This document shows, piece by piece, positions 2,682 through 55,559 of a stretch of DNA of 64,000 bases. The stretch is from Alkalihalobacillus pseudalcaliphilus. GTDB taxonomy: Bacteria > Bacillota > Bacilli > Bacillales > Bacillaceae_D. The DNA lies in contig LFJO01000005.1 in assembly GCA_001038565.1 (NCBI GenBank), positions 806,711 through 870,710 of the forward strand, written 5' to 3'. Position 1 is the first letter of the stretch. Each line of letters opens with the position of its first letter. Both the position numbers and the translations under genes were made by a program. The notes beneath the pieces were generated by a model that made no database searches, was not told where the DNA came from, and saw nothing but the letters and a program-made list of their open reading frames with translations.

Positions 2682-2713
2682 GTGCCATTAATCTGTGGAA
2701 ATCAATTCTATTC

Positions 2714-2743
2714 CGAATGAAAATATGACCTTGTCACATACTA
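2714..2743 (+). promoter_or_regulatory. Sigma-G-type promoter of the spoVA operon
   Basis: A -10 element CATACTA at 2737-2743, identical to the sigma-G consensus, lies 17 bp after CGAATG at 2714-2719 (consensus TGAATA). It sits 45 bp before the spoVAC start. This fits forespore expression of spoVA, known in Bacillus subtilis. It also argues that spoVAC does not start at the upstream in-frame GTG at 2695 and that the operon truly begins at spoVAC. Confidence 0.7.
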
Positions 2744-2787
2744 TCAAAGTCGAGAGTAGTACGGAAAATACGGAGGTTAGAGAAGCG

Positions 2788-3252
2788 ATGGCTGAACAAG
2801 ATTTGAAAAAAGTCAATCAATATCATAAAAATATCGAGCTATATCAGCCTAAGCGTGGCTTTTTTAATCGAGGTATCAAAGCGTTTGTTGTGGGCGGTAT
2901 ATTATGTGTTTTTGGTCAATGGCTTAGTAATCTATACCTCCTCTTTTTGGACATTAATGAAATAGAGGCAAGGGCATTAATGATGTCAACTTTTATCCTT
3001 TTAACAGCGATAATCACAGGAATTGGTTGGTTTGATAAAATCGCACAATTTGCTGGAGCCGGTACGTTAATTCCTGTTACCGGTTTTATGAATGCGATGA
3101 CCAGTGCAGCATTAGAATATAAAAGTGAAGGGCTTGTCTATGGTATTGGAGCTCATATGTTCAAATTAACCGGAGCCATTATTGCAATTGGGGTTTTGTC
3201 TTCTTATTTGGTAGGGCTTGTTCGTTTAATAATACACTACATTATTCATTAG
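2788..3252 (+). CDS. spoVAC: Stage V sporulation protein AC
   Basis: SpoVAC is a membrane component of the channel that moves Ca-dipicolinic acid into the forespore and out during germination; the B. subtilis protein has been reported to act as a mechanosensitive channel. This 154-residue protein (B. subtilis has about 150) has a polar N-terminus, then about four hydrophobic segments. It has the family-typical stretches AFVVGG (about residue 33) and FAGAGT (about 91). ATG 2788 is chosen because GGAGGT lies 10 bases upstream and the sigma-G promoter lies inside the longer frame. A paralogue is encoded at 48114. Confidence 0.93.
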   Translation: MAEQDLKKVNQYHKNIELYQPKRGFFNRGIKAFVVGGILCVFGQWLSNLYLLFLDINEIEARALMMSTFILLTAIITGIGWFDKIAQFAGAGTLIPVTGFMNAMTSAALEYKSEGLVYGIGAHMFKLTGAIIAIGVLSSYLVGLVRLIIHYIIH

Positions 3253-3273
3253 TTAGAAGGGGTATGGTCGGTC

Positions 3274-4269
3274 ATGAAAACGTGGACGTTTCAAAATGGG
3301 ATTTATGTAGAATCAAGCGGCACCGTTGCTGGTCCAAAAGAAGCGGCAGGCCCTCTTTCGGAATCATTTGACCAAACCTATCAAGATTTATATTGTGGCG
3401 AAGAGTCTTGGGAGCTAGCAGAAAGAAAGCTCATGGAAGATGCAATTACACATGCGTTAAAAAAAGCAAATAGGAAACAAGAAGACATTGATATTTTCAT
3501 TGCTGGAGATTTACTTAATCAGATGATTACTTCTAACTATAATGCAAGAAAATTAGCTATCCCTTATCTGGGGGTTTTTTCAGCATGTGCAACTGTAATG
3601 GAGGCGGTGGCGATTGGAGCAATGATGATTGATGGTGGCTTTGCCCATTCAATTTTACTAGCTACGAGTAGTCATCATGCTGCTAGTGAGAGACAATTTC
3701 GCTATCCAAATGAATTTGGCTATCAAAGGCAGGAAACGGCCTCATACACAGTTACTGGAGCAGGAGCATGTATATTGAGTCAGAAAAAGACGAACATAAA
3801 AATTTCAGCAGCAACGATTGGTGCAGTCGTCGATTATGATATGAAAAACCCGTTTCAGTTTGGAGCGACGATGGCCCCAGCAGCGGCTGCAACGATTAAA
3901 AGTCACTTAGACAATACGAAAACGTCTGTTGGAGATTATGATTGTATTTTGACGGGTGATTTGGCACGTGTAGGATCTGGGATTTTGCATAAGCTATTGG
4001 AAGAAGAGGAAATAAAGCTTTCACATACGTATGATGATTGTGGCACGATGATTTATTATACCGATCAAGCCGTCAATGCAGGTGGAAGTGGAGCAGCATG
4101 TTGTGCTGTCGTAACGTTTGGTCATGTATTTAAATTGATGAGGAAAGGTGTATTTAAAAAAGTTCTCGTTGTTGCAACGGGCTCTTTATTAAACCCTTTT
4201 ATGATTTATCAAAAGCAGTCGATTCCGACGATTGCCCATGCGGTTGCCTTTGAAAGAGAGGACATGTAA
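3274..4269 (+). CDS. spoVAD: Stage V sporulation protein AD
   Basis: SpoVAD is a thiolase-fold protein that binds dipicolinic acid and sits with the SpoVA membrane proteins in the spore inner membrane. The 331-residue length is normal for the family. Typical stretches are SGTVAGP near residue 15, SACATVMEA near 106 and TGDLARVGSG near 228. It follows spoVAC by 21 bp, and its stop codon overlaps the start of spoVAE (TAATG). The second operon encodes a 338-residue paralogue with the same landmarks. Confidence 0.95.
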   Translation: MKTWTFQNGIYVESSGTVAGPKEAAGPLSESFDQTYQDLYCGEESWELAERKLMEDAITHALKKANRKQEDIDIFIAGDLLNQMITSNYNARKLAIPYLGVFSACATVMEAVAIGAMMIDGGFAHSILLATSSHHAASERQFRYPNEFGYQRQETASYTVTGAGACILSQKKTNIKISAATIGAVVDYDMKNPFQFGATMAPAAAATIKSHLDNTKTSVGDYDCILTGDLARVGSGILHKLLEEEEIKLSHTYDDCGTMIYYTDQAVNAGGSGAACCAVVTFGHVFKLMRKGVFKKVLVVATGSLLNPFMIYQKQSIPTIAHAVAFEREDM

Positions 4270-4619
4270 TGGAATATCTCGCAGCTTTTATAGTTGGTGG
4301 TGTGATTTGTTTCTTAGGACAAGCTTTACTGGATCTCGTTCGCTTATCACCGATTCATACATTATGTGTATTAGTAACACTTGGTGCCATGTTAGATGGA
4401 TTTCATCTTTATGACCGAATTATTGATTTTGGCGGGGCAGGGGCTATTTTACCGATAACTAGTTTTGGGCATTCTTTCGTTCATGGAGCGATGCAAGAGG
4501 GTGGCAGAGAAGGGTTTATTGGAATAGGTATGGGGATGTTTGAGGTTACATCTGGTGGTCTCTCTTCTGCTATCTTATTTAGTTTTTTAGCTGCTATATT
4601 TTTTAAGGCGAGGGGGTAA
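4269..4619 (+). CDS. spoVAE: Stage V sporulation protein AE (AEb type)
   Basis: This small hydrophobic protein of 116 residues has about four membrane segments and belongs to the SpoVA channel. The conserved FGGAGA-PITSFG stretch lies near residues 56-69 and resembles the FAGAGT-PVTGF stretch of SpoVAC. The ATG overlaps the spoVAD stop by one base, which points to coupled translation. Length and order match spoVAEb of Bacillus. Confidence 0.93.
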   Translation: MEYLAAFIVGGVICFLGQALLDLVRLSPIHTLCVLVTLGAMLDGFHLYDRIIDFGGAGAILPITSFGHSFVHGAMQEGGREGFIGIGMGMFEVTSGGLSSAILFSFLAAIFFKARG

Positions 4620-4625
4620 TGGTGT

Positions 4626-5207
4626 TTGGAGCAAAAGCAAGTAATTGTAGTTACCGATGGGGACGCGGCTGCATTAAAAACGATTCAATATGTAGCCAAT
4701 AAAATAGGTGGACTTTGTATAGCTCAATCCGCAGGAAATCCAACGCATTTAACAGGGCAAGAATTAATTGAATTAATCTTACAAGCAGATAAAAACCCAG
4801 TTTTTGTCATGTTTGATGATTGTGGCTCAAGATATGAGGGGCTTGGTGAACATGCGATGAGGATTGTGTACGATGAGCCTATGATCCAAGTCATTGGAGC
4901 AATTGCTGTAGCATCTGCGACACATAGTAAGGAGTGGGCCAAAGTTGATATTTCTATAGACCGTTTTGGCCATTTAACCGAGTATGGAGTCGATAAAAAT
5001 GGTTTCCCAGACTTAGAAATTGGCAGAATTAACGGAGATACTTTATATATTCTTGATGAATTTGAGATACCAGTAGTCGTAGGCATTGGTGATATAGGTA
5101 AAATGGGAGGTTTTGATGATGTGAAAAAAGGTGCCCCGATCACAATGCAAGCAGTACAAATTATTTTAGAAAGGAGTGGTAACCTTGACAAAAAAAAGAG
5201 ATTATAA
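4626..5207 (+). CDS. spoVAEA: Stage V sporulation protein AEa
   Basis: This is a soluble protein of 193 residues starting at TTG 4626, with an AGGGGG site overlapping the end of spoVAE. The N-terminus has the VVTDGDAAAL stretch, followed by SAGNPT near residue 35 and the VGIGDIGKMGG stretch near 160, all usual in SpoVAEa. Its role in B. subtilis spores is not well defined; it is co-transcribed with the channel genes. It overlaps spoVAF by 23 bp. The second spoVA operon in this window has no counterpart. Confidence 0.9.
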   Translation: MEQKQVIVVTDGDAAALKTIQYVANKIGGLCIAQSAGNPTHLTGQELIELILQADKNPVFVMFDDCGSRYEGLGEHAMRIVYDEPMIQVIGAIAVASATHSKEWAKVDISIDRFGHLTEYGVDKNGFPDLEIGRINGDTLYILDEFEIPVVVGIGDIGKMGGFDDVKKGAPITMQAVQIILERSGNLDKKKRL

Positions 5208-6675
5208 GGATGAACCGCTATTTTATAAGAGCTATCGAGACAATATTGCCTATCTAGAAGAACGGCTAAAGCTAGATATTTCTTTCGATATCGGTGTTCG
5301 TGAGTTAGAAATCCTAGATCATCGGATTGGGATTTATTATGTAACAGGTCTTACTGATAACTTATATATCATTGAGATTATGAAAGAATTAATGGATCTA
5401 GGCGCTAGGAACCGAAAATCTTCAGATGTATTTGGTGCTATAAAAAACCATCTCACACATGTCCAAGTCGAAGAGACGAGAGAAGTCAATAATGCGATTA
5501 AACAAATGCTTTCGGGATTAATATTTATTATCGTTGAAGGATATGATCAAGCATTTATTATCGATGTTCGTCAATATCCTGGGCGTGGACCTGAGGAACC
5601 AGACACAGAACGTGTCGTTCGTGGTGCACGTGATGGTTTTACTGAAAATATCATCATGAATACGGCCTTAGTGCGAAGAAGGATTCGAGATGAGCGTTTA
5701 CGACATGAAATTACTCAAGTCGGCGTACGCTCTAAAACAGATATTTGTATTTCTTATATAGATGGTATTGCCGATCCTGACCTAGTTGATATTATTAGAA
5801 AAGAGTTAGATTCGATTGAAATAGACGGACTAACGATGGCCGATAAGGTGATTGAAGAGTACATTGTTAAACAAGGTTATGATCCATTTCCTCTTGTTCG
5901 TTATACGGAGAGGCCAGATGTAGCGGCAACCCATTTATTAGAAGGTCATGTTGTGATTATGGTTGATACATCTCCAAGTGTCATTATTACACCGACCACT
6001 TTCTTTCATCACATACAGCATGCGGAGGAATATAGGCAAGCACCTGCAGTCGGATCATTTTTACGCTGGGTACGAACAATCGGAATTGCAACGTCTTTAT
6101 TTATCATTCCTTTTTGGTTGTTGCTCGTTATTGAACCTACTTTATTACCTGCAGCTCTAGATTTCATTGGTCCTGAGGAGACGAATAATATCCCGATTCT
6201 TTTACAAATCTTATTTGCTGAATTTGGGATTGAGCTACTGAGGATGGCGGCTGTTCATACACCTTCACCATTAGCCACAGCCCTTGGCTTGGTCGCAGCT
6301 TTATTAATAGGTGAAATGGCGATTGAGGTAGGTTATTTTACAACAGAAGTTATCTTGTATGTCGCTTTAGGTGCTATTGGTATGTTTGCTACACCTAGTC
6401 ATGAACTAGGGGTGGCTTTGCGAATCATTCGAATTGCCCTTGTCTTATTAGTTGGGATATTTAAAGTTCCTGGTTTTGTTGTGGGAACGTTAATACTAAT
6501 CTTCTGTTTGACGGCAATAAAACCATTTAACAAGCCTTATTTTTGGCCATTTATTCCTTTTGACCCACCGGCATTATGGCAAATCTTAATTAGAGCCAAT
6601 GTTCCATCGATGCGTTGGCGTCCAAGTATTGTAAATCCACAGGATCCTGTTAAACAGGATTTAAAAAATGAATAG
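5185..6675 (+). CDS. spoVAF: Stage V sporulation protein AF (GerA-family A subunit paralogue)
   Basis: This 496-residue protein is related to the A subunits of nutrient germinant receptors. A soluble N-terminal half carries the family stretch GARDGFTE near residue 150, and about five membrane segments fill the C-terminal half from about residue 295. I chose TTG 5185 because AAGGAG at 5171-5176 is 8 bases upstream; an in-frame GTG at 5176 lies inside that site. SpoVAF is reported to help amplify germination in B. subtilis. It is the last gene of the operon and is followed by the lysine riboswitch. Confidence 0.92.
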   Translation: MTKKRDYKDEPLFYKSYRDNIAYLEERLKLDISFDIGVRELEILDHRIGIYYVTGLTDNLYIIEIMKELMDLGARNRKSSDVFGAIKNHLTHVQVEETREVNNAIKQMLSGLIFIIVEGYDQAFIIDVRQYPGRGPEEPDTERVVRGARDGFTENIIMNTALVRRRIRDERLRHEITQVGVRSKTDICISYIDGIADPDLVDIIRKELDSIEIDGLTMADKVIEEYIVKQGYDPFPLVRYTERPDVAATHLLEGHVVIMVDTSPSVIITPTTFFHHIQHAEEYRQAPAVGSFLRWVRTIGIATSLFIIPFWLLLVIEPTLLPAALDFIGPEETNNIPILLQILFAEFGIELLRMAAVHTPSPLATALGLVAALLIGEMAIEVGYFTTEVILYVALGAIGMFATPSHELGVALRIIRIALVLLVGIFKVPGFVVGTLILIFCLTAIKPFNKPYFWPFIPFDPPALWQILIRANVPSMRWRPSIVNPQDPVKQDLKNE

Positions 6676-40922: not shown

Positions 40923-40929
40923 GAAATGA

Positions 40930-40970: not shown

Positions 40971-40971
40971 T

Positions 40972-41520: not shown

Positions 41521-41649
41521 CATCATCATCCTTAACTCTCAATACTAAAAACAGATAAACTCAATACTGCTAGTTTATCATTGAAGCCATACAAATGTGA
41601 AGAAAAGACCGCCCAAGATGCTCCAACAAGGCAGTTAAGCAAGAAAGTG

Positions 41650-42015: not shown

Positions 42016-42102
42016 AGAAAATCAAAGATAGGGTCTATCGACAAAATATGATATAATTTCTATGAAAATACTAATCATTTAGGAAGTGCTTGTGATGGAC
42101 TT

Positions 42103-43447: not shown

Positions 43448-43478
43448 AGAACTGCAGAGTACTGTAGTTCTTTTTTTT
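43446..43478 (+). terminator. Terminator after scpB
   Basis: AGAACTGCAG and CTGTAGTTCT (one G-T pair) form a hairpin with a 4-base loop, followed by eight T residues. Confidence 0.85.
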
Positions 43479-43554
43479 GATCAAAATGAAAATGAGTTCA
43501 CATTTGGGCTTTTTATTCATAAACTATAAAATGATGTTTTTTAAGGGGGATGAC

Positions 43555-44418
43555 ATGAGTATTTATATTAGTGAAGTAAAGCGTTGGTACGAAGACAATA
43601 AAGATTTTTTGTATGCTGAACTGAATCACTTATCTGAACAGGAAAAAGGAGAACTTCGTCAACTGTTAACTCAAATTGAACAAGTATTATCATTAGAGCA
43701 CAGAAGTCATAATCAGATATCCGATGCGAGTTTATCACATTTATTAGATTCCGTTTACATGCTAATTGAAGGGAATTTGAGTCGTGGGGAACGGGCTCCT
43801 GTGCCGATTGGTGGTCATACTCTACCACCTTTGCCGTATGCGTATAATGCTTTAGAGCCGTATATCTCGGAAGATATTATGTACTTACACCATGATAAGC
43901 ATCATAAAAGCTATGTGGAAGGCTTAAACAAAGCAGAATTAGAAATGCAGACGGCCAGAGAAACAGGGAATTATGATCTTATTAAACATTGGGAACGAGA
44001 AGCGGCATTTAATGGAGCGGGACATTATTTGCATTCTATCTTTTGGGAGATTATGTCTCCGAACGGTGGGGGTGAGCCAACAGGTGAGCTATTAAGTGAA
44101 ATTAATCGTTCATTCGGTAGCTTTGATAAAATGAAAGAGCATTTTACTCACGCGGCAGATGCAGTTGAAGGTGGGGGATGGGCAATTTTAGTATGGTCAC
44201 CAAGGGCTAAACGTTTGGAAATTTTGCAAGCGGAAAAGCATCAGCAACTTTCCCAACAAGATGCGATTCCTCTCCTTGTACTTGATGTGTGGGAGCATGC
44301 TTATTATTTACAATATTTAAATGAGAAAAAGGATTATGTGAATGAATGGTGGAACATTGTGAATTGGCCAGCAGTAGCGATGAGGTATGAGAAAGCTAAG
44401 CTTGTCCAGTGGAATTAG
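43555..44418 (+). CDS. sodF: Superoxide dismutase, Fe/Mn family with N-terminal extension
   Basis: This 287-residue protein has the Fe/Mn superoxide dismutase core from about residue 85, preceded by an ~80-residue helical extension, as in B. subtilis SodF (281 residues). Metal ligands are visible: HHDKHH near 109, a histidine in GAGHYLHSIFW near 154, and LDVWEHAYY near 247. ATG 43555 is used because AAGGGGGATG precedes it; longer forms start in the scpB terminator. The metal (Fe or Mn) cannot be decided by eye. Confidence 0.9.
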   Translation: MSIYISEVKRWYEDNKDFLYAELNHLSEQEKGELRQLLTQIEQVLSLEHRSHNQISDASLSHLLDSVYMLIEGNLSRGERAPVPIGGHTLPPLPYAYNALEPYISEDIMYLHHDKHHKSYVEGLNKAELEMQTARETGNYDLIKHWEREAAFNGAGHYLHSIFWEIMSPNGGGEPTGELLSEINRSFGSFDKMKEHFTHAADAVEGGGWAILVWSPRAKRLEILQAEKHQQLSQQDAIPLLVLDVWEHAYYLQYLNEKKDYVNEWWNIVNWPAVAMRYEKAKLVQWN

Positions 44419-44423
44419 ATAGG

Positions 44424-44470
44424 AAAAAAAGACGGATCGTATCAACTATTGACACGATCCGTCTTTTGTT
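44424..44470. terminator. Bidirectional terminator between sodF and cls
   Basis: AAAAGACGGATCGT and ACGATCCGTCTTTT form a 14-bp stem with A residues before and T residues after, suited to both convergent genes. Confidence 0.85.
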
Positions 44471-44472
44471 TT

Positions 44473-45927
44473 TTATAGAATAGGAGAAAGTAGTCTGGAT
44501 ATAGACTCTTTAAATCGAATCCAGCTTGAACGATTCTCATATAACTCGGGTGTTAATTCAAACGATAATTTCATATCCTCCTCAAACATTAGAGCTAAAT
44601 TTTCAGAAGTATTCATGTCATATATAAAAGCTGTAACCTCAAAATTTAATTTAAAGCTTCGCATATCAATATTCGCTGTCCCCACAGCATTAATACTTCG
44701 ATCAATAATTAATGTTTTGGCATGGATGAAGCCATTATCATAAATATAGACTTTGGCACCTGCTTTTAATAACTCTCCAACATAAGAGTATGTTGCCCAA
44801 TAGACAAATGGATGATCAGGCTTATTAGGTATCATCACACGTACGTCTACACCGGATAATGCAGCGATTCGAAGAACATCAAATAAGGTTTGATCAGGGA
44901 TGAAATAGGGGGTCTGAATAAAAATGGAATCATTGGCTTCTGAGATCATTTTTACATAACCGTTTTTAATTTGCTCCCATTCTGAATCCGGACCACTTGA
45001 TACGATTTGCATAGGCACATTATTTTCTTGTTCAAAATAGTTTTCAGGAAAATAACGCTCCTCGTATTCAATCTCTTTTTTCTTAGCGGCTTGGTTCCAA
45101 TCTAAGATAAAGCGTGTCTGGATAGCGTGAACAGATTCACCTTGTAAGCGTAAGTGAGTATCGCGCCAATACCCGAATCTCTCTTTCTTGCCAAGGTATT
45201 CATTACCGACGTTAAATCCCCCAATATAGCCAGTTTTTCCATCTATATTGACTAACTTTCGGTGATTTCGGTAATTTAATCGTAAGTTAATAATCGTAAA
45301 ACTTGAAGGAAAGAAAACAGCGACTTCTCCACCCGCGTCTTCAAATTCCTTAAGATGTTTTTTCCTTAATTTCCTTGAGCCTAAATCGTCATATAAAAGC
45401 CTAACGGTGACACCCTGCTTAGCCTTTTTAGTTAATAACTTGATTAATTTTTTCCCGAGATCATCATGCTTCAAAATATAATATTGGATGTGAATATAGG
45501 AGGTTGCTCGATCAATATCCTCAAATAAAGTATTAAATTTTTCTTTACCATCATAGAAAATATCGATGTGGTTATGCTTGGTGAGAAGTGCGTCATTACT
45601 CATCAAATGTAAATAAATTAGATCGCGGTTTTTTTGAACCATTTCATTTCTGAATTGGAATTGAGGGTCGATGAGTTGTTCCTTTTGTACGGAAATAGAA
45701 TCCTCTAAGCCTATTTTTTTAATACCTTCCCAATAAAAAAGCTTACTTCGTGTTAAGTTTTGTCCAAGTAATAAATAAATGACAAATCCTAAAAATGGAA
45801 TAAAATAAAGGACTAATAGCCATGCCCACGTTGCAGCAGGATCTTTCCTTTCAATAAAAATAAGGACTGTTGCAAAAATGAAATTTAAAATAAAAAGTAC
45901 GGTGACGAGTGTTGAAAAAATGTCCAT
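44473..45927 (-). CDS. cls: Cardiolipin synthase
   Basis: This 484-residue membrane enzyme joins two phosphatidylglycerols to cardiolipin. Two N-terminal membrane segments (about residues 5-25 and 35-55) precede two phospholipase-D motifs, HRKLVNIDGKTG near 222 and HAKTLIIDRS near 400. The length is typical of ClsA. The ATG at 45927 has an AGGTAGG site. It is transcribed alone from the minus strand. Confidence 0.95.
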   Translation of the reverse strand: MDIFSTLVTVLFILNFIFATVLIFIERKDPAATWAWLLVLYFIPFLGFVIYLLLGQNLTRSKLFYWEGIKKIGLEDSISVQKEQLIDPQFQFRNEMVQKNRDLIYLHLMSNDALLTKHNHIDIFYDGKEKFNTLFEDIDRATSYIHIQYYILKHDDLGKKLIKLLTKKAKQGVTVRLLYDDLGSRKLRKKHLKEFEDAGGEVAVFFPSSFTIINLRLNYRNHRKLVNIDGKTGYIGGFNVGNEYLGKKERFGYWRDTHLRLQGESVHAIQTRFILDWNQAAKKKEIEYEERYFPENYFEQENNVPMQIVSSGPDSEWEQIKNGYVKMISEANDSIFIQTPYFIPDQTLFDVLRIAALSGVDVRVMIPNKPDHPFVYWATYSYVGELLKAGAKVYIYDNGFIHAKTLIIDRSINAVGTANIDMRSFKLNFEVTAFIYDMNTSENLALMFEEDMKLSFELTPELYENRSSWIRFKESISRLLSPIL

Positions 45928-46097
45928 AATTTACCTACCTACATTGTTCTGACATGAAAGCGTATGAACCTTATATCAGAGGAAATATTTACTTTCTTCT
46001 ATCATACCCGATTCATAGGTAGGATGAAACGAATTTCCCTTTAAATATCCGATTCTTTATATTCAAAATGATATATTCTTTGCTTGTAGTATGTTTG

Positions 46098-46778
46098 TTA
46101 ATATTTCTGGATTTCGAAACCCTCATTTTCAATCCAATCAGCATAAAGGACGGCGGTTGGACCCGCAATCCCCCTTCGTAATAATTCATCCATTAACCAT
46201 GATTCCTTTCTGTTTAAGAAGTTGAGGCTTTCGTAAATAATTTCACCATCCATAATGAGTGCAATCGGCAAATGACTGCTTTTTGCAGGAATTCGTAAGT
46301 CTTCGTTTTTAGGTGTATTGTAATTGAATTTTTTCATTACACTTAATGTGCCATTTGTTTCGAGAATGCCATTTTGTACCTCTCGTATCGAAAAGACGTC
46401 CTTTTCTCTTAATAAATGCTGTAATTGATTGAGATCAAGTTTATTCTTCTTAAGTTCTTCATATTGAATTTTGCCGTTAACAATGATAAGTGAAGGCTTT
46501 CCTTCTAAGAGGGCTCTAGATTCACGGATTTTTTGTGTAATCATTTCGATGAAAAAAATTAATGCTCCCCAAAAACAAATGGCATACAGAACATAATGTA
46601 AGCCAATTTCAGGATCGTATATAGCGTTACCTACGAGTTCCCCAAGTACTAATGCAGAGATGAAGTCAAAGGGAGTTAATTGTGTAATTTGGTTTTTGCC
46701 TAGAAATTTGGTTAAGGCTAATAAAGCGAAAAAGCCGATTAATAATTCTACTGTTAAGGAGACAAAGTTCATATTCAT
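46098..46778 (-). CDS. YetF/DUF421 membrane protein
   Basis: The 226-residue protein has three N-terminal membrane segments (about to residue 85) and the DUF421 C-terminal domain with LIIVNGKIQYEEL near 98, LRE/LRQK-type KDVFSIREV near 125, and LIMDGEIIYESLN near 175. The ATG at 46778 is preferred, with GAGGTG 9 bases upstream. The end of a dispersed repeat lies directly 5'. DUF421 proteins affect spore germination or resistance in some bacilli. It is one of three in this window. Confidence 0.88.
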   Translation of the reverse strand: MNMNFVSLTVELLIGFFALLALTKFLGKNQITQLTPFDFISALVLGELVGNAIYDPEIGLHYVLYAICFWGALIFFIEMITQKIRESRALLEGKPSLIIVNGKIQYEELKKNKLDLNQLQHLLREKDVFSIREVQNGILETNGTLSVMKKFNYNTPKNEDLRIPAKSSHLPIALIMDGEIIYESLNFLNRKESWLMDELLRRGIAGPTAVLYADWIENEGFEIQKY

Positions 46779-46804
46779 ATGCGTTTGCACCTCTGTTTTT
46801 ACTT

Positions 46805-46985
46805 TTGTATGAAAGTTTATGGAGCGTTAATCAACGCTACCGAAAATCATGCTCCGAGACATCACGTGGCGCTGAGCTAATCGGTGCAGCCAGCGGATCT
46901 CATCTTTGCCATTACGTCCCATGGGAGTAGATATTTCCGTCCGCTTCGTATTGCTAATTCTCAAGTAAAAAAATCTAACATTATT
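46805..46985 (-). repeat. Dispersed repeat, P module (copy 7)
   Basis: On the minus strand this reads TTGAGAATTAG, a CCGCTGGCTGCACCGATTAG stretch, CGGAGCATGATTTTCGGTAGCG, CGCTCC and AAACTTTCATAC. It ends 26 bp before the DUF421 start on the same strand. A plus-strand 74-codon frame here is a shadow of the repeat. Confidence 0.7.
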
Positions 46986-47121
46986 CTTTTAAATGAAAAG
47001 GACAAAATCAAATTAAACGAAAAACTAACTGTTAACCAGTCAAGGATCAATAATTTGGCGGCGGAGCAGTTAGCTGCGTCTAAGGTTAATAAGATGGCTG
47101 GTATTTGATTTTAAATAATTG

Positions 47122-47230
47122 TTGACCTTTCCGACTTTAATTTTGGTCCGTATTTGAAAATTAATCTGGTTATTTTAGTTTGCCATGTGTTAATTAGCTT
47201 TTTGGCTGATTTACTGTCTTGTTGCTTGGC
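47122..47230. repeat. Diverged copy of the cruciform-element flank
   Basis: GTTGACCTTTC, then TTTGGTCCGTATTTGAAAA, is the inverse of the right side of the palindrome at 15923-15975 (TTTTCAAAAACGGACCAAA, GAAAGGTCAAC). The rest is strongly diverged. No gene is seen between 46986 and 47389. Confidence 0.5.
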
Positions 47231-47307
47231 TAGATTGAATTCGATTTTTTATTAGCATGTACCTTACTTCTCATTATTATTTCTCGAAGTAGTAGTTGAA
47301 ACAATTA

Positions 47308-47339
47308 ACATAATTTGTAACTAATAGTTTGGCAATAAT
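47308..47339 (+). promoter_or_regulatory. Weak forespore-type promoter candidate before the second spoVA operon
   Basis: GGCAATAAT at 47331-47339 resembles a sigma-F/sigma-G -10 region and ACATAA at 47308-47313 a -35, with 17 bp between. The match is poor; a forespore promoter is expected here from the gene content. Confidence 0.25.
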
Positions 47340-47389
47340 GTTGAAAAATATAGAAGAAGTTCGAATATAAATAAAAAGGAGTGAGAGTT

Positions 47390-47593
47390 ATTACTGTTAT
47401 TGCGAAAATACAACAAACGATGGTGGGATTAAAAAGTGCTCAAGCAAGCTTAGAAAGCTTTGCTTTAGAGACAGATAATCAACAAGCCAAACAATTATAC
47501 CAACAGCTTTCACAACAAACACAAGCCATTGTGGATAGCTTAGAACCGAGAGTACAGCAAGTGATGCAAGAAGAACCACAGTATCGACAATGA
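47390..47593 (+). CDS. DUF1657 protein with probable ATT start
   Basis: This helical protein of 67 residues belongs to DUF1657, with the late EEPQY stretch shared with the copy at 49966. The strong site AAAAGGAG (47374-47381) is followed 8 bases later by ATT at 47390. Aligning the two paralogues without gaps puts this ATT at the other's initiator methionine (TVIAKIQQTMVGLK against TIGKQVKGTLATLK). A GTG at 47381 is in frame but lies within the ribosome binding site. It is the first gene of the spoVA2mob-type operon. Confidence 0.82.
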   Translation: MTVIAKIQQTMVGLKSAQASLESFALETDNQQAKQLYQQLSQQTQAIVDSLEPRVQQVMQEEPQYRQ

Positions 47594-47602
47594 TCCATTT
47601 TA

Positions 47603-47634
47603 CAGCCTCCATCATTGATCGGAGGCTCGTTTTA
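47603..47634 (+). terminator. Hairpin between DUF1657 and the lipoprotein gene
   Basis: AGCCTCC (47604-47610) pairs with GGAGGCT (47621-47627), followed by CGTTTTAC. The T tract is weak, so it may lower expression of downstream genes rather than stop it. Confidence 0.45.
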
Positions 47635-47671
47635 CATATTTTACAATTATCTAAAAGGGAGGCGAGGAGTT

Positions 47672-48106
47672 ATGAAGACTAAAAGCAGATGTATCGGATT
47701 TTTTGTTCTACTTCTTCTATTAAGTGCTTGTTCGAATGGAGATTCACCAACCGTACAATCGTTACTGGTGGATCATAAACAATTTGAACAAACGGAAGCT
47801 AACGAGAGTAAGAAAAAGTTAATGGAGCTAGATGAGTTTATTGATGTACATGGGGTATCGATTGAAGATCGGATTTATTTATCACCTAAAGTTAAACAAT
47901 TGGCACGTTTTCGATTAAATGGACTTAGGAAACAATCCTTTGATCAAATTAAAAACCTATATCCCGAACACGAAATACATGTATCTACAGATAAAAAAGT
48001 GTATATGGAACTAGAGAAATTAGAGCAAAGATTAAAGGACGGCAAAATTACAGAAGAAGAGCTTAAGAAAGAGCTTGATAAAATTGAAAAGCATATGAAG
48101 GGGTGA
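47672..48106 (+). CDS. YhcN/YlaJ family sporulation lipoprotein
   Basis: This 144-residue lipoprotein has a signal peptide with lipobox LLSAC and modified cysteine C20, then a short domain with a VYMELEKLEQRL coiled C-terminus. It matches the YhcN/YlaJ lipoproteins of spore membranes. ATG 47672 is used, with GGCGAGGAG upstream; the longer frame runs back into the hairpin. In spoVA2mob operons a YhcN/YlaJ gene is found in this same position before spoVAC. Confidence 0.85.
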   Translation: MKTKSRCIGFFVLLLLLSACSNGDSPTVQSLLVDHKQFEQTEANESKKKLMELDEFIDVHGVSIEDRIYLSPKVKQLARFRLNGLRKQSFDQIKNLYPEHEIHVSTDKKVYMELEKLEQRLKDGKITEEELKKELDKIEKHMKG

Positions 48107-48113
48107 CTAAACA

Positions 48114-48593
48114 ATGTCAAACAGTAAACAAAAACAAGCGACGCCAACACAGCAGGCTTATCAAGCGTTAGCAAATAGGTACGAAATAAAAAGACCGGTT
48201 CTAAAAAACTGTATCAGGGCATTTATAGTCGGAGGCTTGATCTGTATAATCGGACAAGCCATAAATATCTTCTTTTATACATTTTTTGATTTTACGGAGC
48301 GCACGGCTAGTAACCCAACCGTTGCTGTGCTTATTTTACTGGCCGCATTATTTACTGGATTTGGGGTGTACGATCGGTTTGCCCAGTTTGCTGGAGCCGG
48401 TACAGCCGTCCCTGTAACAGGATTCGCTAACTCAATTACATCAGCTGCCATCGAACATCGAACAGAAGGTTACGTATTAGGTGTCGGTGGTAATATGTTT
48501 AAATTAGCAGGCTCTGTGATCGTATTTGGTACCGTCGCTGCTTTTTTGATTGCTTTAATTAAAACCATACTTATCCAATGGGGAGGGCTGTAA
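48114..48593 (+). CDS. spoVAC: SpoVAC, second copy (spoVA2mob type)
   Basis: This 159-residue paralogue of the protein encoded at 2788 shares RAFIVGGLICIIGQ near residue 37 and FAGAGTAVPVTGFANSITSAAIEH over 90-115. It should form a second dipicolinate channel component. The ATG lies 7 bp after the lipoprotein stop. The shared motifs are clear, but the N-terminus is diverged. Confidence 0.92.
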   Translation: MSNSKQKQATPTQQAYQALANRYEIKRPVLKNCIRAFIVGGLICIIGQAINIFFYTFFDFTERTASNPTVAVLILLAALFTGFGVYDRFAQFAGAGTAVPVTGFANSITSAAIEHRTEGYVLGVGGNMFKLAGSVIVFGTVAAFLIALIKTILIQWGGL

Positions 48594-48596
48594 ACG

Positions 48597-49613
48597 ATGT
48601 TACAAGGTCATCAGTCGTGGATTTTTCCTAATAAGCCAGTCATTCTATCAACCGGTACAGTAGCAGGACCATTTGAAGCCAACGGTGCAATCGCTCATGA
48701 CTTTGATAAGCTACATGACAACCTTTGGCTTGGGGAGGATTCATATGAGAAAGCTCAGAAAGTATTAATTGAAGAAGCGGTAACCATTGCGATTGAGAAA
48801 GAAAAGTTAACCAAGGAGCAAATTACATTCATGCTGTCAGGTGATTTAGTGAATCAACTAACTCCTTCGTCCTTTGCAGGACGCACCTTGCAAATCCCAT
48901 ATCTAGGTGTATTTGGTGCTTGTTCAACCTCAATGGAGGGTTTAGCTTTAGCGGCTTTTATAATTAATAATCGCGGGGCGAACTATATCGCTACAGTAGC
49001 ATCTAGTCATAATGCAGCCACAGAAAAACAGTTTCGTTACCCTACTGAATATGGTGGTCAAAAACCTCCAACATCGCAATGGACCGTGACAGCAGCAGGA
49101 GCAGCTATCGTCGCTCCACAAGGAATAGGTCCTGTCGTTACATCGGCAACGATTGGAAAAATTGTTGATATGGGTATTTCCGATCCTTTTAATATGGGGG
49201 CAGCGATGGCTCCGGCTGCTGCTGACACGATAGAAGCCCATTTTCGGGATAGACAATTACCCTTTGATTATTATGATTTAATTGTCAGTGGAGACTTAGG
49301 GAAAATTGGTCTGAAAATAACGCGAGAATTATTAAAAGAAAAAGGTATGGTTTACTCAGACGAACAGTTTCAAGATTGTGGATTATTAATTTACCGTGAA
49401 GGCCAGCCTGTTTTAGCAGGTGCGAGTGGGCCAGGCTGTTCAGCATCGGTGGTGTATGGACATTTATTAAAGAGAATGAGTCAAGGTGAATTTAAACGGA
49501 TTCTTGTTGTGGCAACGGGTGCTTTATTGTCTCCTTTATCCTTTCAACAAAAAGAAAGTATACCAACGATAGCTCATGCTGTTTCGATTGAAAGGGGAGT
49601 GAATATCGAATGA
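48597..49613 (+). CDS. spoVAD: SpoVAD, second copy
   Basis: The 338-residue thiolase-fold protein is paralogous to the one encoded at 3274. It has STGTVAGP near residue 19, [14 protein letters not shown] near 112 and [12 protein letters not shown] near 232. It follows spoVAC by 3 bp and overlaps spoVAEb by 4 bp. By analogy it binds dipicolinic acid at the inner membrane. Confidence 0.93.
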
Positions 49614-49960
49614 TTTTCTTATGGGCTTTTCTAGTTGGAGGTTTAATTTGTGTCATTGGACAATTATTAATGGATGTGGGCAAACTGACCCCTGCACATA
49701 CGATGACGGTTTTGGTTGTGTCAGGTGCGATTCTTGATGGCTTTGGTTTGTATGAACCTCTTATCGATTTTGCAGGTGCAGGTGCAACGGTTCCAATTAC
49801 GAGCTTTGGTAATTCACTTGTGCACGGGGCAATGGCAGAAGCCGAGGCTAACGGACTAATTGGGGTGATTACCGGTATTTTTGAAGTAACAAGTGCAGGG
49901 ATTTCAGCGGCGATCATTTTTGGATTTTTTGCGTCACTTATTTTTAAACCGAAAGGGTAG
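49610..49960 (+). CDS. spoVAEB: SpoVAEb, second copy
   Basis: This 116-residue membrane protein has about four segments and the [21 protein letters not shown] stretch near residues 56-76. It has the same length as the copy encoded at 4269. No SpoVAEa or SpoVAF gene follows; instead a DUF1657 gene does, which is the mark of the spoVA2mob layout. Confidence 0.93.
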
Positions 49961-49965
49961 ATTTT

Positions 49966-50172
49966 ATGACTATTGGAAAACAAGTGAAGGGGACTTTAGC
50001 CACATTAAAAGGGATGGAAGCGACGATTGCAGCGATAGCACTCCAAGGTGACGGAATTGAGAAGCGAAGTCGTTTCCATGAGGCAAACTTAAAAGTTAAA
50101 GCTGTCATTCATGAAATCGAAAAAAGAGTAGCAGAGCTCGAAAGAGAAGAGCCACAGTATAAAGGGAATTGA
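49966..50172 (+). CDS. DUF1657 protein, second in operon
   Basis: The 68-residue helical protein has TLATLKGMEATIAAIAL near residue 10 and ends in EEPQYKGN. It is paralogous to the protein encoded at 47390. It has a normal ATG with an AAAGGGTAG site. It lies between spoVAEb and the DUF421-DUF1657 fusion. Function is unknown, but the family is tied to spores. Confidence 0.88.
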   Translation: MTIGKQVKGTLATLKGMEATIAAIALQGDGIEKRSRFHEANLKVKAVIHEIEKRVAELEREEPQYKGN

Positions 50173-50182
50173 GGTGGAAAAT

Positions 50183-51031
50183 ATGCCTGGATGGTTAGAA
50201 GTAACTGTTAGAACAATTGCAGCCTTAGTTAGCTTATTTATCATTTCAAAAGTTGTCGTGAAAAAACCGATTGGAGAAAGCTCATTTTTAGAATTTGCTT
50301 TATTTACAGGTACGGTTATGATTGCGGCCATTAGTGCTGTCATGTTAAGTATTCCACCAGTTTTAGCTTTATTAGCATTAGTTATTTGGACTTTGTCAAT
50401 TGTATCTATTTATTTTATTGCAATTAAAAGTGCCTCATTTCGAACATTCTTTTTTGGGAAGGGTACCGCAGTCATTCAAGAAGGAAAAATATTAGAGGAT
50501 GCATTAAACAAACAGCATATTACGGGTGATGAATTGTTAAGAAAGCTAAGGCAGAAAGATATTTTTCGATTTGCTGATGTTGAATTTGCTCTTTTAGAAA
50601 CAAATGGTGAGTTAAATGTTTTACTAAAAGATGAGAAGGTCCAAGTGATAAAACGAAAAAGTGTTAAACAAAGTAAACAGCCTGAAACGGTTATTGCTGA
50701 TGGGCGTATTTTGGATGAAAGCCTCGGCAATAGAGGATTGAATCGAGATTGGTTGCAAACAGAATTAGCGAAACAAGACATTTCACTTGAGAATGTTTTT
50801 TTAGGACAAATTGATGAGAATGGCGATTTATATGTTGATGTATTCGATGATAGCTTACAGCAAGTTGAACCTGTAACCTTACCATTATTAAAAGCACAAA
50901 TTCATAAAGTACAGGCCGATTTACAATCTTACGCATTAGATACAAACAATCCAGAAGTAAAACAAACCTATCAATGGTGCTATAACCAAATCACTGAAGC
51001 ATACTTAACGTTAAAAGGCGACCTTCATTAA
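50183..51031 (+). CDS. 2Duf-type protein: DUF421 fused to DUF1657
   Basis: The 282-residue protein has two or three N-terminal membrane segments, the DUF421 domain (AVIQEGKILEDAL near residue 95, VIADGRILDESL near 170) and a C-terminal DUF1657-like helical unit (LPLLKAQIHKVQADLQSYAL near 232). This fusion is the 2Duf protein of spoVA2mob operons, reported as a main contributor to high spore heat resistance. ATG 50183 follows GAGGTGG. It ends tail to tail with the minus-strand DUF421 gene, with a 4-bp overlap. Confidence 0.88.
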   Translation: MPGWLEVTVRTIAALVSLFIISKVVVKKPIGESSFLEFALFTGTVMIAAISAVMLSIPPVLALLALVIWTLSIVSIYFIAIKSASFRTFFFGKGTAVIQEGKILEDALNKQHITGDELLRKLRQKDIFRFADVEFALLETNGELNVLLKDEKVQVIKRKSVKQSKQPETVIADGRILDESLGNRGLNRDWLQTELAKQDISLENVFLGQIDENGDLYVDVFDDSLQQVEPVTLPLLKAQIHKVQADLQSYALDTNNPEVKQTYQWCYNQITEAYLTLKGDLH

Positions 51032-51744
51032 TGTTGAATAAGCTGAATATGTGTATCTTCTCGTGTATATGCGAGAGTAAGCTGTTGGTTAGGGTCGCTC
51101 GTACAAAGAAATACATCTTCAATTCGAGCAATACCTTTGTCATAAATAAAAGATAAAATATAATCCTTGTTAATGGAAAGCTCTTTCATTACTTCTAATT
51201 GAAAAAGACCATCGATAATGACAGGGTAAGTAATCCCTGAAGAAACCTTACGTAATCCCATATCTTCTAAGGCCGGAGACGCTTTTTCTGGCTTTTTTTG
51301 TATACTGATATCTCCATTAGCTTCAATAATACCTATCTCTACTTCATCAAGATCAAAAACACCCTTTTGTCTAAGTAACTGCAAGATATTATCAATCGTA
51401 TAACGAATCGATTCAATGTTTTGGACGAGTAATTTTCCATTTTTAATAATGACAGTAGGCTCAAAAGTAATCCATTTGCCCATTTTTCTATTCTTGATTA
51501 ACATACGAGCGATTAATTTCTGAAATAATGCGATCACCATAATGGCAAATACAGTATGGATGTGAGGGATCGTAGGATCAGCAATATCAGCACCTGTTAC
51601 GGAGGCTAAACTCATAATAATTAAGAAATCAAAAATCGGTAGTTCACCAATTGATCGCTTACCCATTATAAGTGTAGCAAATAATAATAAAGGGAAAATG
51701 GAAATGATTCTTAAAAAAATGATGGCAAATTCTTGCAGTAACAT
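51028..51744 (-). CDS. YetF/DUF421 membrane protein
   Basis: This 238-residue protein has N-terminal membrane segments (FLRIISIFPLLLFATLIMG near residue 9, then two more) and the DUF421 domain with VIIKNGKLLVQNI near 98 and PVIIDGLFQLEV near 175. The ATG at 51744 is used because AAGGAG lies 11 bases upstream on the minus strand; the longer frame adds 29 residues with no such site. It is the third DUF421 gene in 5 kb. Confidence 0.85.
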   Translation of the reverse strand: MLLQEFAIIFLRIISIFPLLLFATLIMGKRSIGELPIFDFLIIMSLASVTGADIADPTIPHIHTVFAIMVIALFQKLIARMLIKNRKMGKWITFEPTVIIKNGKLLVQNIESIRYTIDNILQLLRQKGVFDLDEVEIGIIEANGDISIQKKPEKASPALEDMGLRKVSSGITYPVIIDGLFQLEVMKELSINKDYILSFIYDKGIARIEDVFLCTSDPNQQLTLAYTREDTHIQLIQH

Positions 51745-51846
51745 GTAAGAGCAGCTCCTTAAAATTTCCACATAATGGCTAGTGTGTGCGGTAATTGGTT
51801 TTATTATGAATCTGTTTTGATAAAAAGGCATAAGTAAGCTTGTCTA

Positions 51847-51876
51847 GCATACATTTTTTAAGAAGAGACATGCTAT
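51847..51876 (+). promoter_or_regulatory. Sigma-E-type promoter candidate of dacB
   Basis: GCATACA (51847-51853) and CATGCTAT (51869-51876) are 15 bp apart and resemble the sigma-E elements. They lie about 50 bp before dacB, whose B. subtilis operon is sigma-E dependent. Confidence 0.5.
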
Positions 51877-51924
51877 AAGAATCAAAGTGCTTAGATAAGA
51901 TGAATTTGGAATGTAGGTGATCGT

Positions 51925-53082
51925 ATGAAACGAATGAAGTGGTTAATGATTGTTATGGCAATGTGTATTCTTTTACCAAACGTAACGACAGTGAAAGCAG
52001 TGAATGACCGGAATTTCTCCGTATCGGCCCAGGCTGCTATTTTGATGGAGCAATCTTCAGGACGCATTTTATACGCGAAGGCAGAGCATGAACCGTTAAG
52101 AATCGCTAGTATCACAAAAATTATGACAGCGATTCTTGCCATTGAATCAGGTATGTTAGATGAAACGGTCGTTGTTTCTGATCGAGCGATTCGAGCAGAG
52201 GGCTCATCGATTTATTTACGTGCCAATGAAAAAATTAAATTGCATGACCTTGTTTATGGATTAATGCTTAGGAGTGGAAATGATGCTGCTGTAGCGATAG
52301 CTGAACATGTGGGTGGAAGCTTAGATGGATTTGTTATGCTTATGAACCAAAAAGCAGAAGAAATTGGTATGGAACATACAAGTTTTAAAAATCCGCATGG
52401 CTTGGATGATCATGAGGACCATTACTCAAGTGCTTATGATATGGCTTTATTAACTCAATATGCGATGAATAATGAGAAGTTCAGGACCGTATCAAGCACG
52501 AAGTCCTATAAAAGTTTAAACCTAGATGAGGAAATACGTGTATTCAAGAATAAGAATCGTTTATTAACAGAGCTCTATCCCCACTCAACAGGTGGAAAGA
52601 CAGGTTACACCAAAAGAGCGAAAAGAACGCTTGTGTCGACAGCATCCAAAGAGGATATGGATTTAATTGTCGTAACGATTAATGCACCGAGTGATTGGCA
52701 TGATCATATGAATTTATTTGAATGGGCGTATGACCAATATGAATTAGAGGCAATCTTACCTAAAGGAAAGGTCGAGGATGTGGGCGATGAATTTTATCGT
52801 GACCATGTGATCAGCAAAAACGAACTTACCTACCCGTTGACTGAATCTGAAAAAGGACAGCTTCATAAAAAATTTACCTTTTTAAAAATACCAGAAAAAA
52901 GGGTAGAGCATTCATTTCAAAAAAATAAACCCGTAGGTAAAGTTGAATTTTATCTAGATGAACAACTGATAGAGAAGATGGCCCTTTATTATGACGGTCC
53001 TTTTGAGGAAAAGAAAAAAGGTTTTTGGTCAAGGTGGTTTCATATTTTTATTCATACAATAGGAGTCGATCGTTATGATTAA
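51925..53082 (+). CDS. dacB: D-alanyl-D-alanine carboxypeptidase (PBP5*, sporulation)
   Basis: This 385-residue exported penicillin-binding protein trims cortex peptide stems and controls cross-linking. A signal peptide spans about residues 1-25. The three active-site motifs are SITK (Ser62, Lys65), SGN at 117-119 and KTG at 225-227. A basic C-terminal amphipathic tail fits membrane attachment. Position before spmA-spmB, overlapping spmA by 8 bp, identifies it as dacB. Confidence 0.94.
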   Translation: MKRMKWLMIVMAMCILLPNVTTVKAVNDRNFSVSAQAAILMEQSSGRILYAKAEHEPLRIASITKIMTAILAIESGMLDETVVVSDRAIRAEGSSIYLRANEKIKLHDLVYGLMLRSGNDAAVAIAEHVGGSLDGFVMLMNQKAEEIGMEHTSFKNPHGLDDHEDHYSSAYDMALLTQYAMNNEKFRTVSSTKSYKSLNLDEEIRVFKNKNRLLTELYPHSTGGKTGYTKRAKRTLVSTASKEDMDLIVVTINAPSDWHDHMNLFEWAYDQYELEAILPKGKVEDVGDEFYRDHVISKNELTYPLTESEKGQLHKKFTFLKIPEKRVEHSFQKNKPVGKVEFYLDEQLIEKMALYYDGPFEEKKKGFWSRWFHIFIHTIGVDRYD

Positions 53083-53671
53083 TATCATTTGGGTATCGTT
53101 ATTGTTGGTTGGCTTAATTTATGCAGCCTTTAATGGAACAATGTCAGACGTAAATGAGGCTGTATTTACTGGAGCCAAAGAGGCTGTGACCATATGTATT
53201 GGCTTAATAAGTATATTAGTTTTTTGGTTAGGGTTAATGAAGATTGCGGAGAATTCAGGTTTACTACGTAGTTTCTCGAAATTATTAAGACCAATCTTTA
53301 GAAGATTATTCCCTGAAGTACCTTCCGATCATCCAGCAATGGGTTATATCTTATCAAATATGACAGCTAATATGTTTGGTTTAGGAAATGCCGCGACGCC
53401 AATGGGTATTAAAGCGATGGAAGAACTAAAGGTACTGAATGGTGGACAAGATTATGCAAGTCGTTCCATGATTACATTGTTAGCAATTAATACGGCTGGT
53501 TTATCTTTAATTCCAACAACCGTTATTTCCATACGTATGACCTACGGTTCAGTGAACCCTACAGAGATAGTAGGAACGACTTTAATCGCTTCTCTTATAT
53601 CAATGATCGGTGCCATTTTAATTGACCGTTACTTTTATCATAGACGGAGGAGGAAGGGGCGTGTGGTATGA
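53075..53671 (+). CDS. spmA: Spore maturation protein A
   Basis: This 198-residue membrane protein of the nucleoside-recognition (Gate domain) family is required for full spore core dehydration in B. subtilis. Features are about four membrane segments, NMFGLGNAATPMGI near residue 104, and a basic C-terminus. It overlaps dacB and spmB, forming one operon. Confidence 0.94.
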   Translation: MINIIWVSLLLVGLIYAAFNGTMSDVNEAVFTGAKEAVTICIGLISILVFWLGLMKIAENSGLLRSFSKLLRPIFRRLFPEVPSDHPAMGYILSNMTANMFGLGNAATPMGIKAMEELKVLNGGQDYASRSMITLLAINTAGLSLIPTTVISIRMTYGSVNPTEIVGTTLIASLISMIGAILIDRYFYHRRRRKGRVV

Positions 53672-54198
53672 CGTTTATTACGGAAGTATCAACATGGATT
53701 ATCCCTGCATTAATTGCGTTTATCTTGATATATGGTACGTATAAGAAAGTACCAACCTATGAAACTTTTGTACAGGGAGCGAAGGATGGATTTGGTCTTG
53801 CGATCTCTATTATTCCTTTCTTAGTTGGCATGCTTGTAGCCATATCCGTATTTCGAGCTTCTGGAGCTATGGACTTTATTGTTGACTTATTAAGACCCTT
53901 ACTTTCATTTGTCGGTGTTCCTGCTGAAGTTGTACCACTCGCAATGATTCGGCCGATATCAGGCACAGGGGCATTAGGCATGACGACTGACTTAATTGCG
54001 ACACATGGTCCTGATTCTTTTATTGGTCGCCTCGCAGCAACTATGCAAGGAAGTACAGATACGACTTTATATATATTAACTGTTTATTTTGGTGCGGTGG
54101 GCATTAAGAAAATGGGCGATGCACTAAAGGTAGGTTTACTGGCTGATATTGTTGGTTTAGTTGCAGCCATTGTTGTCGTCACTCTCGTTTTTGCTTAA
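53668..54198 (+). CDS. spmB: Spore maturation protein B
   Basis: The 176-residue membrane protein is the partner of SpmA, with a Gate domain, RPISGTGALGMTTDLI near residue 92 and GSTDTTLYILTVYFG near 128. Loss of either gene in B. subtilis gives spores with higher core water and lower heat resistance. It starts 4 bp inside spmA and is followed by a terminator. Confidence 0.94.
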   Translation: MTFITEVSTWIIPALIAFILIYGTYKKVPTYETFVQGAKDGFGLAISIIPFLVGMLVAISVFRASGAMDFIVDLLRPLLSFVGVPAEVVPLAMIRPISGTGALGMTTDLIATHGPDSFIGRLAATMQGSTDTTLYILTVYFGAVGIKKMGDALKVGLLADIVGLVAAIVVVTLVFA

Positions 54199-54242
54199 AG
54201 TAGATTCATAGTTTCAAAGAGAGCTAATCTCGTTATTCAAAC

Positions 54243-54285
54243 ATAAAACGAGTTCGATGAATTCATCGGGCTCGTTTTATTATTT
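54243..54285 (+). terminator. Terminator after spmB
   Basis: An almost complete 19-bp stem (ATAAAACGAG...CTCGTTTTAT enclosing GATGAA/TTCATC) is followed by TATTTATTT. The T tract is interrupted. Confidence 0.75.
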
Positions 54286-54357
54286 ATTTAGAAGTAACCT
54301 CATAGTCTTATTATTCGTTAGGTTCAAGCTTATGAAGTTTGTGTAAAAGTAGGTTCA

Positions 54358-54387
54358 TGAATAGTAATGACTTACATGGATACAATA
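54358..54387 (+). promoter_or_regulatory. Sigma-G-type promoter of the first ger operon
   Basis: A consensus -35 TGAATA at 54358-54363 is followed after 17 bp by TACAATA at 54381-54387 (consensus CATACTA). It lies 33 bp before the first germination gene, as expected for forespore expression of ger receptors. Confidence 0.6.
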
Positions 54388-54419
54388 CCCATTAGTAATA
54401 AGTGGTAGGGGTGAAGGTC

Positions 54420-55550: not shown

Positions 55551-55559
55551 GGAGGAGTT

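Follow-up and report, generated by a model that had tools for sequence, protein, structure and literature searches.

The operon at positions 47390 to 51031 of a 64,000-nucleotide stretch of the Alkalihalobacillus pseudalcaliphilus genome (contig LFJO01000005.1; the whole stretch is hereafter called the window) was found to consist of seven genes, which encode in order a DUF1657 protein, a YhcN-like lipoprotein, SpoVAC, SpoVAD, SpoVAEb, a second DUF1657 protein, and 2Duf. Judged from its sequence and surroundings, this spoVA2 operon is an ancestral part of the chromosome that was inherited vertically, and not a trapped transposon. The explanation that fits best, and in which considerable confidence can be placed, is an ancestral chromosomal spoVA2 channel operon whose product would be at least an equal importer of dipicolinic acid (DPA), combined with a separable module of DUF1657 and 2Duf proteins.

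The gene order, which an earlier note on this DNA had described as that of spoVA2mob, was borne out by domain matches along the operon (Table 1). The Pfam matches of the spoVA2 SpoVAC, SpoVAEb, and SpoVAD had E-values of 1.9e-39, 9.2e-39, and 1.4e-154, respectively. The score of the lipoprotein against Spore_YhcN_YlaJ lies under the Pfam cut-off of 26.3 bits, and that of its sister-species orthologue (29.3) lies over it. A lipobox-like cysteine of the lipoprotein was aligned in all 32 rows of an alignment (A2) of 32 of the 46 candidates, which is weak support only, because the rows had been chosen for a cysteine near the start. The start of 2Duf is more likely the ATG at 50183, which matches its relatives. 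The genome (4,485,366 bases) contains four SpoVAC/AEb genes and two SpoVAD genes, and thus two operons, as expected by the note, which had proposed two sets of DPA-channel genes in the cell. The window's genus is represented by two genomes in the collection, and among named relatives Alkalihalobacillus trypoxylicola is the closest by 2Duf, with 57% identity.

The nearby canonical operon was as the earlier note had described it only in part. While spoVAC, AD, AEb, AEa, and AF were present, no match to SpoVAA (PF12164) was found in the whole window genome, so the operon falls short of the full canonical set of seven genes. SpoVAA and SpoVAB were missing in 24 of the 40 genomes examined, including that of the window, and SpoVAA was missing genome-wide in 25 of the 41 genomes of the family; spore-formers without these two proteins are already known (PMC3533761; cited, like the other papers below, for part of its text). 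A more extensive loss was observed in one draft genome, G027, whose canonical locus reads spoIIAB-sigF-spoVAA-spoVAB-spoVAEa-spoVAF-lysA. Here spoVAC, AD, and AEb were missing, and 113 bp separate spoVAB from spoVAEa on one contig. Across this genome there were one SpoVAD match and two SpoVAC/AEb matches, all within its spoVA2 operon, as compared with four to six SpoVAC/AEb matches in the other family genomes, save the draft G036 with two. This putative sporulator looks like a natural replacement of the canonical DPA channel by the spoVA2 core, and its remaining spoVAA, AB, AEa, and AF presumably serve that core.

The canonical SpoVAC and SpoVAEb have evolved fast in the window's clade, and the spoVA2 core has not. 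Rates were tabulated for 35 of the 41 family genomes, in which all eleven genes were long enough, and tree lengths on a fixed tree were compared between the genera g1, g2, and g7 (18 of these genomes) and the genera g3, g4, and g5 (16 genomes). The ratio was 4.25 for the canonical SpoVAC and 4.70 for the canonical SpoVAEb; for ten other genes it ranged from 1.12 to 2.01, with 1.96 for the canonical SpoVAD, 2.01 for spmB, and 1.12 to 1.38 for the three spoVA2 core genes. Likewise, the mean identity of the window to g7 was 40.6% for the canonical SpoVAC and 75.2% for the spoVA2 SpoVAC.

A different reading of these rates is that the canonical channel is still the main DPA importer, that spoVA2 is auxiliary or condition-specific, and that the fast canonical SpoVAC and SpoVAEb reflect adaptation and not relaxation. 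This is a possibility of clearly lower standing. It is favored by the full reading frames of the canonical core genes in the window, by the retention of spoVAEa and spoVAF in all 40 genomes examined, and by the lack of a strong sigma-G box before the window's spoVA2 operon, but it accords poorly with the loss of the canonical core in G027, with the frequent absence of SpoVAA and SpoVAB, and with the Bacillus cereus group, where spoVA2 was shown in 2026 to be the main dipicolinate importer (PMC13059800).

Turning to the composition of the operon, its genes seem to fall into two modules that can be separated, one a DPA channel and the other a membrane module of DUF1657 and 2Duf. No match to DUF1657 (PF07870, E <= 0.01) was found in 16 of the 41 family genomes, which included all five of g2 and 11 of the 13 of g7. 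Fifteen of these 16 keep the spoVA2 SpoVAD, and their loci also contain SpoVAC, SpoVAEb, and the YhcN-like protein; the sixteenth is the incomplete draft G036. In G031, also of g7, the core was kept and the lone DUF1657 match was located elsewhere. DUF1657b and 2Duf are kept and DUF1657a is missing in G026 and in G035, which branches at the base of g7. Taken together, the loci suggest DUF1657b as the likeliest partner of 2Duf.

The reverse separation was observed among 2Duf loci, which were drawn by 2Duf similarity and thus form a non-random sample. After 16 of the 112 loci were left out for their short flanks, a stand-alone DUF1657 gene lay within 4.5 kb in 90 of the remaining 96 distinct loci, and SpoVAC, AD, and AEb were all present within that distance in 66, some of them in 17, and none in 13. 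Two of the 13 (L062 and L066) are extra copies that follow a full operon at a distance of several kb. A second 2Duf match is present in the genomes of L233, L242, L248, and L249; for L233 (G292) it is the full operon on L232. Reduced operons also occur. In L077, L081, L133, and L241, the operon is DUF1657-SpoVAD-DUF1657-2Duf and lacks full SpoVAC and AEb genes (L241 contains a short fragment that resembles SpoVAC), and in L091, L094, L095, L098, and L104, SpoVAC and AD are present and AEb is missing.

It seems unlikely that the DUF1657 proteins and 2Duf are integral to the spoVA2 channel, with YetF homologues replacing them in the genera that lack them. Their linkage to the channel genes in those 66 loci and the persistence of YetF homologue 1 beside the operon where DUF1657 is gone would suit such an arrangement. 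What counts against it are the 15 genomes with a spoVA2 SpoVAD and no DUF1657 match, the 13 2Duf loci without any SpoVA gene in the flanks examined, and the published B. cereus complex, in which C2, D2, and Eb2 co-purify with the YhcN/YlaJ protein NJ2, the predicted cap (PMC13059800). Relaxed selection on the window's 2Duf was also considered and was dropped, as it is no further from its sister-species counterpart than would be expected (1.06 relative to the distances between other genera).

The vertical inheritance of the operon was examined through its surroundings and its phylogeny. In 39 of the 41 family genomes, including that of the window, the spoVA2 core has yetF1 upstream and dacB-spmAB downstream, with extra genes between them in some; the earlier note's placement of the operon inside conserved backbone is thus confirmed. 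Alkalihalophilus pseudofirmus OF4 also has this locus (L078). The two others are G035, where a contig end splits the locus (L073 and L230), and G036, an 86% complete draft whose locus was not fetched. In 34 of the 39 loci, sod was on the far side, and the five stretches from g2 contained no match to scpAB or sod, only cls. Beyond the family set, dacB-spmAB was found downstream of the operon in Alkalihalobacterium (L092 and L093), Alkalihalobacillus sp. BA299 (L097), Anaerobacillus (L090 and L099), and one genome of another family (L247), although no scpAB, sod, or yetF match was found upstream in L090 and no yetF match in L099. A tree of SpoVAC, SpoVAD, and SpoVAEb shared 30 of 43 splits with a tree of DacB, SpmA, SpmB, ScpA, and ScpB (46 rows), as compared with a maximum of three in 500 label shuffles. 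The window's genus was sister to g2 and g7 in both trees, with supports of 92 and 89, respectively.

Of the two origins that the note had left standing, an ancestral chromosomal form and an old integration, these results favor the former. That the operon arrived on a Tn1546-like element, which later lost its transposase and ends, is very improbable. Its gene order is that of the Tn3-family element of pDMB05-2 (L044), in which 38-bp terminal repeats (35 of 38 positions alike) enclose spoVA2mob together with cls and yetF pieces. However, the profiles of Tn1546-type transposase (two seeds) and resolvase (six seeds) found no match in the window, in line with the earlier note, which had seen no transposase. 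The terminal-repeat check that it had proposed yielded none at 40001-56000, where the best match to the 38-bp repeat of the transposon was 21/38, the level of shuffled sequence. The operon also has the same neighbors across genera and families and a tree congruent with the backbone, and the cls genes of the window and the transposon share about 30% identity. In an approximately unbiased (AU) test, the grouping of the window SpoVAD with four transposon- or plasmid-type copies was rejected (p 6e-70); as the AU tests place the sister species outside the group, they are evidence against a recent origin of the window copy. A recent duplication of this genome's canonical spoVA genes, for which the earlier note had proposed a tree check, has next to no probability, since despite the common spoVAC-AD-AEb order the SpoVAD tree (59 rows) splits 14 canonical from 45 spoVA2 copies by a branch with 100% support, the AU test rejects the window's spoVA2 SpoVAD among canonical copies (p 0.008), and the structures 3lma and 3lm6 score 409 and 401 bits with the canonical SpoVAD and 338 and 354 bits with the spoVA2 SpoVAD.

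The shared cls, yetF, and spoVA2 cargo was considered as a sign that Tn1546 had drawn on such a locus, but it was dropped as proof of kinship given the low cls identity and the differing order and orientation; a recurrent association of the three is possible. Other potentially mobile copies were also noted. A block with 2Duf, SpoVAC, SpoVAD, SpoVAEb, cls, and YetF pieces is 97.6-99.4% identical over 7-12.5 kb in four Paenibacillus species, and 1.5 kb of it is 98-99% identical in Brevibacillus reuszeri (L144, L145, L149, L151, and L152, including Brevibacillus). It may represent a second, non-Tn1546 mobile spoVA2 element, or contamination, given the short length of three of the five contigs. 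Additionally, a sequence labelled as the Klebsiella grimontii plasmid pNY3A (L047, CP079755.1) contains a Bacillus-type spoVA2, 2Duf, and spore-germination genes, and is probably mislabelled or a mixed assembly.

Several observations weigh against the preferred explanation of an ancestral spoVA2 channel that is probably at least on a par with the canonical one and is accompanied by a separable module. The canonical spoVAC, AD, and AEb were present in 39 of the 40 genomes examined, which makes their loss an exception, and the genome that lost them is a single draft of about 200 contigs with 5% contamination. In g4, conservation does not differ between the canonical SpoVAC (84.6%) and the spoVA2 SpoVAC (84.7%), and g2 retains SpoVAA and SpoVAB despite a divergent canonical SpoVAC. 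Within the two species of the window's genus, only the canonical SpoVAC was somewhat fast, with a distance ratio of 1.53 as compared with 1.02 for the canonical SpoVAD and 1.18 for SpoVAEb (G021 and G011, which have broken frames, were left out). Just two joint losses of the adjacent genes DUF1657b and 2Duf are required by the trees, so the independent events are few. In the window, DUF1657a begins with ATT at 47390, with an in-frame GTG alternative at 47381, where all nine aligned relatives have ATG. Finally, the best sigma-G box upstream of the window operon scored 9/12 against the consensus, not above shuffles; with the same consensus, 48 of 85 relative loci scored 11-12 as compared with five of 85 when shuffled, some genomes being counted twice. 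A sigma-F promoter in its place was dropped as well (best score 9/11, P 0.34 in shuffles).

Comparable systems have been described. In the B. cereus group, the spoVA2 (5A2) operon (PMC13059800; PMC10126465) matches this one in its seven genes and their order, and it is likewise chromosomal and second to a canonical-type operon. Compared with its published description, the window operon has dacB-spmAB downstream and yetF homologues on both sides, its canonical partner is without spoVAA-AB, and it has no clear sigma-G box. The spoVA2mob operon on Tn1546-like elements (PMC5133452) also shares the gene order, with cls and yetF genes nearby, but its SpoVAD falls in a different clade, its 2Duf is 40% identical to that of the window, and its transposase, resolvase, and terminal repeats were not found here. 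In Clostridium sporogenes PA 3679, SpoVAC-AD-AEb with DUF1657 and DUF421-DUF1657 proteins also occur outside Tn1546, as a five-gene operon that is patchy in group I strains (PMC5376575); the window operon has seven genes and a core that is near-universal in the family. The note had taken a chromosomal copy to be unusual, which was not upheld, as such copies have been reported from the B. cereus group (PMC10126465) and a transposon-borne 2Duf query (E <= 1e-45) matched 253 of the 397 genomes sampled from the order, in 97 of 135 genera, although some of the matches may be YetF homologues, given that G002, G003, and G006 match and have no DUF1657. The window 2Duf query matched 24 of the 41 family genomes at the same threshold.

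In B. anthracis, wild-type DPA levels require the spoVA2 locus, which suffices for them without spoVA1, and either locus alone is enough for DPA release (PMC13059800). Since the window genes correspond in position and protein family to those of the B. cereus-group operon, the same mechanism is the best inference. SpoVAC and SpoVAEb would form an inner-membrane channel, with SpoVAD as its cytoplasmic plug and the YhcN-like lipoprotein as its outer cap. By orthology, this tetramer would import DPA into the forespore and could release it at germination. The evolutionary pattern suggests that in the window's lineage the spoVA2 complex probably ranks at least level with the canonical channel as a DPA importer and may be the main one, and that the canonical channel core may be partly freed from its duty. 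The two DUF1657 proteins and 2Duf would form a second module, which probably changes inner-membrane properties, as suggested by the loss patterns and published work on 2Duf and YetF. For the alkaliphile family as a whole, it is an evenly balanced proposition that spoVA2 is the principal dipicolinate channel, with the canonical core turning dispensable, and that DUF1657/2Duf is a separate membrane-protection module that accompanies the channel, each able to do without the other; the dispensability is suggested because the canonical core is fast in the window's clade and missing in G027.

On the one side, the window operon is flanked by scpAB, sod, and cls, and on the other by dacB-spmAB, and two minus-strand YetF homologues bracket it (Table 1). 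The names of sod, dacB, cls, and YetF were confirmed with Pfam, and those of scpAB, spmAB, sigF, lysA, and the ABC transporter were given by eye. The cls gene is beside yetF1 (window 43477-46790) in the window's genus, g2, and g7. In L050 and L052 (of g4 and g3, respectively), its place is taken by an alkaline-phosphatase-superfamily-like gene (by eye), and in L050 a glycosyltransferase-like gene (by eye) adjoins yetF2. Three g4 genomes (L062, L065, and L066) have extra DUF1657 genes and YetF homologues between 2Duf and yetF2, with a second 2Duf in L062 and L066. Additional operon copies were found elsewhere in G014 and G016 (L069 and L070). The canonical operon of the window is followed by lysA and preceded by ABC transporter-like genes (479-2695), as compared with spoIIA-sigF upstream in many relatives; no sigF match was found upstream of it in the window, nor in the fetched stretch of the sister species (L252).

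Table 1. Features of the window discussed in the text, with their coordinates and supporting evidence.
Feature	Coordinates	Strand	Evidence
Canonical-type spoVA operon, spoVAC-AD-AEb-AEa-AF, without spoVAA and spoVAB	2695..6675	+	
Cardiolipin synthase-like (PLDc_2) gene, cls	44473..45927	-	PF13091; also adjoins the locus in 16 loci of genera g2 and g7
YetF homologue 1 (DUF421), yetF1, conserved neighbor	46098..46790	-	PF04239, PF20730; syntenic in relatives
Presumed promoter region upstream of the operon, conserved in relatives	47305..47350	+	-10 part deviates from the sigma-G-like CATnCTA of several relatives
DUF1657a, stand-alone	47390..47593	+	PF07870 E 3.5e-22
YhcN/YlaJ-like lipoprotein, positional counterpart of channel cap SpoVANJ2 (NJ2)	47672..48106	+	PF09580 18.3 bits; aligns with 31 relatives
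SpoVAC, spoVA2 type (C2), membrane channel subunit	48114..48593	+	TIGR02838 206 bits
SpoVAD, spoVA2 type (D2), cytoplasmic plug	48597..49613	+	PF07451 514 bits; PRK12404 subfamily 605 bits; PDB 3lm6 354 bits
SpoVAEb, spoVA2 type (Eb2), membrane channel subunit	49610..49960	+	TIGR02839 177 bits
DUF1657b, stand-alone	49966..50172	+	PF07870 E 1.9e-7
2Duf, DUF421 (YetF) domain with C-terminal DUF1657	50183..51031	+	PF04239 E 2.8e-36, PF07870 E 1.5e-9; start set by alignment
YetF homologue 2 (DUF421), yetF2, convergent with 2Duf, 4-nt overlap	51028..51831	-	PF04239; there in most, not all relatives
dacB-spmA-spmB, backbone markers of the locus	51925..54198	+	PF00768 for dacB; spmA and spmB named by eye; kept downstream of the operon in relatives

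Chromosomal spoVA2 is already known from the B. cereus group and clostridia. A literature search covering few subscription journals turned up six papers mentioning DUF1657; it found no published case of canonical core loss from a genome and, for this family, no description of a spoVA2 core lacking DUF1657/2Duf. As far as searched, the core loss in G027, the uneven evolution of the canonical SpoVAC and SpoVAEb, and the DUF1657-free genomes with a spoVA2 core are therefore new. The wet-heat resistance of spores is a food safety concern. In spoVA2mob strains, 2Duf is believed to contribute most to it, and the authors of that work did not settle whether the surrounding genes are needed by 2Duf (PMC10126465). 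As the channel tetramer and the DUF1657/2Duf genes are separated in nature, the question of the partners of 2Duf becomes testable, and with G027 as an apparent natural replacement, the division of labor between the two channels is open to study without engineering.

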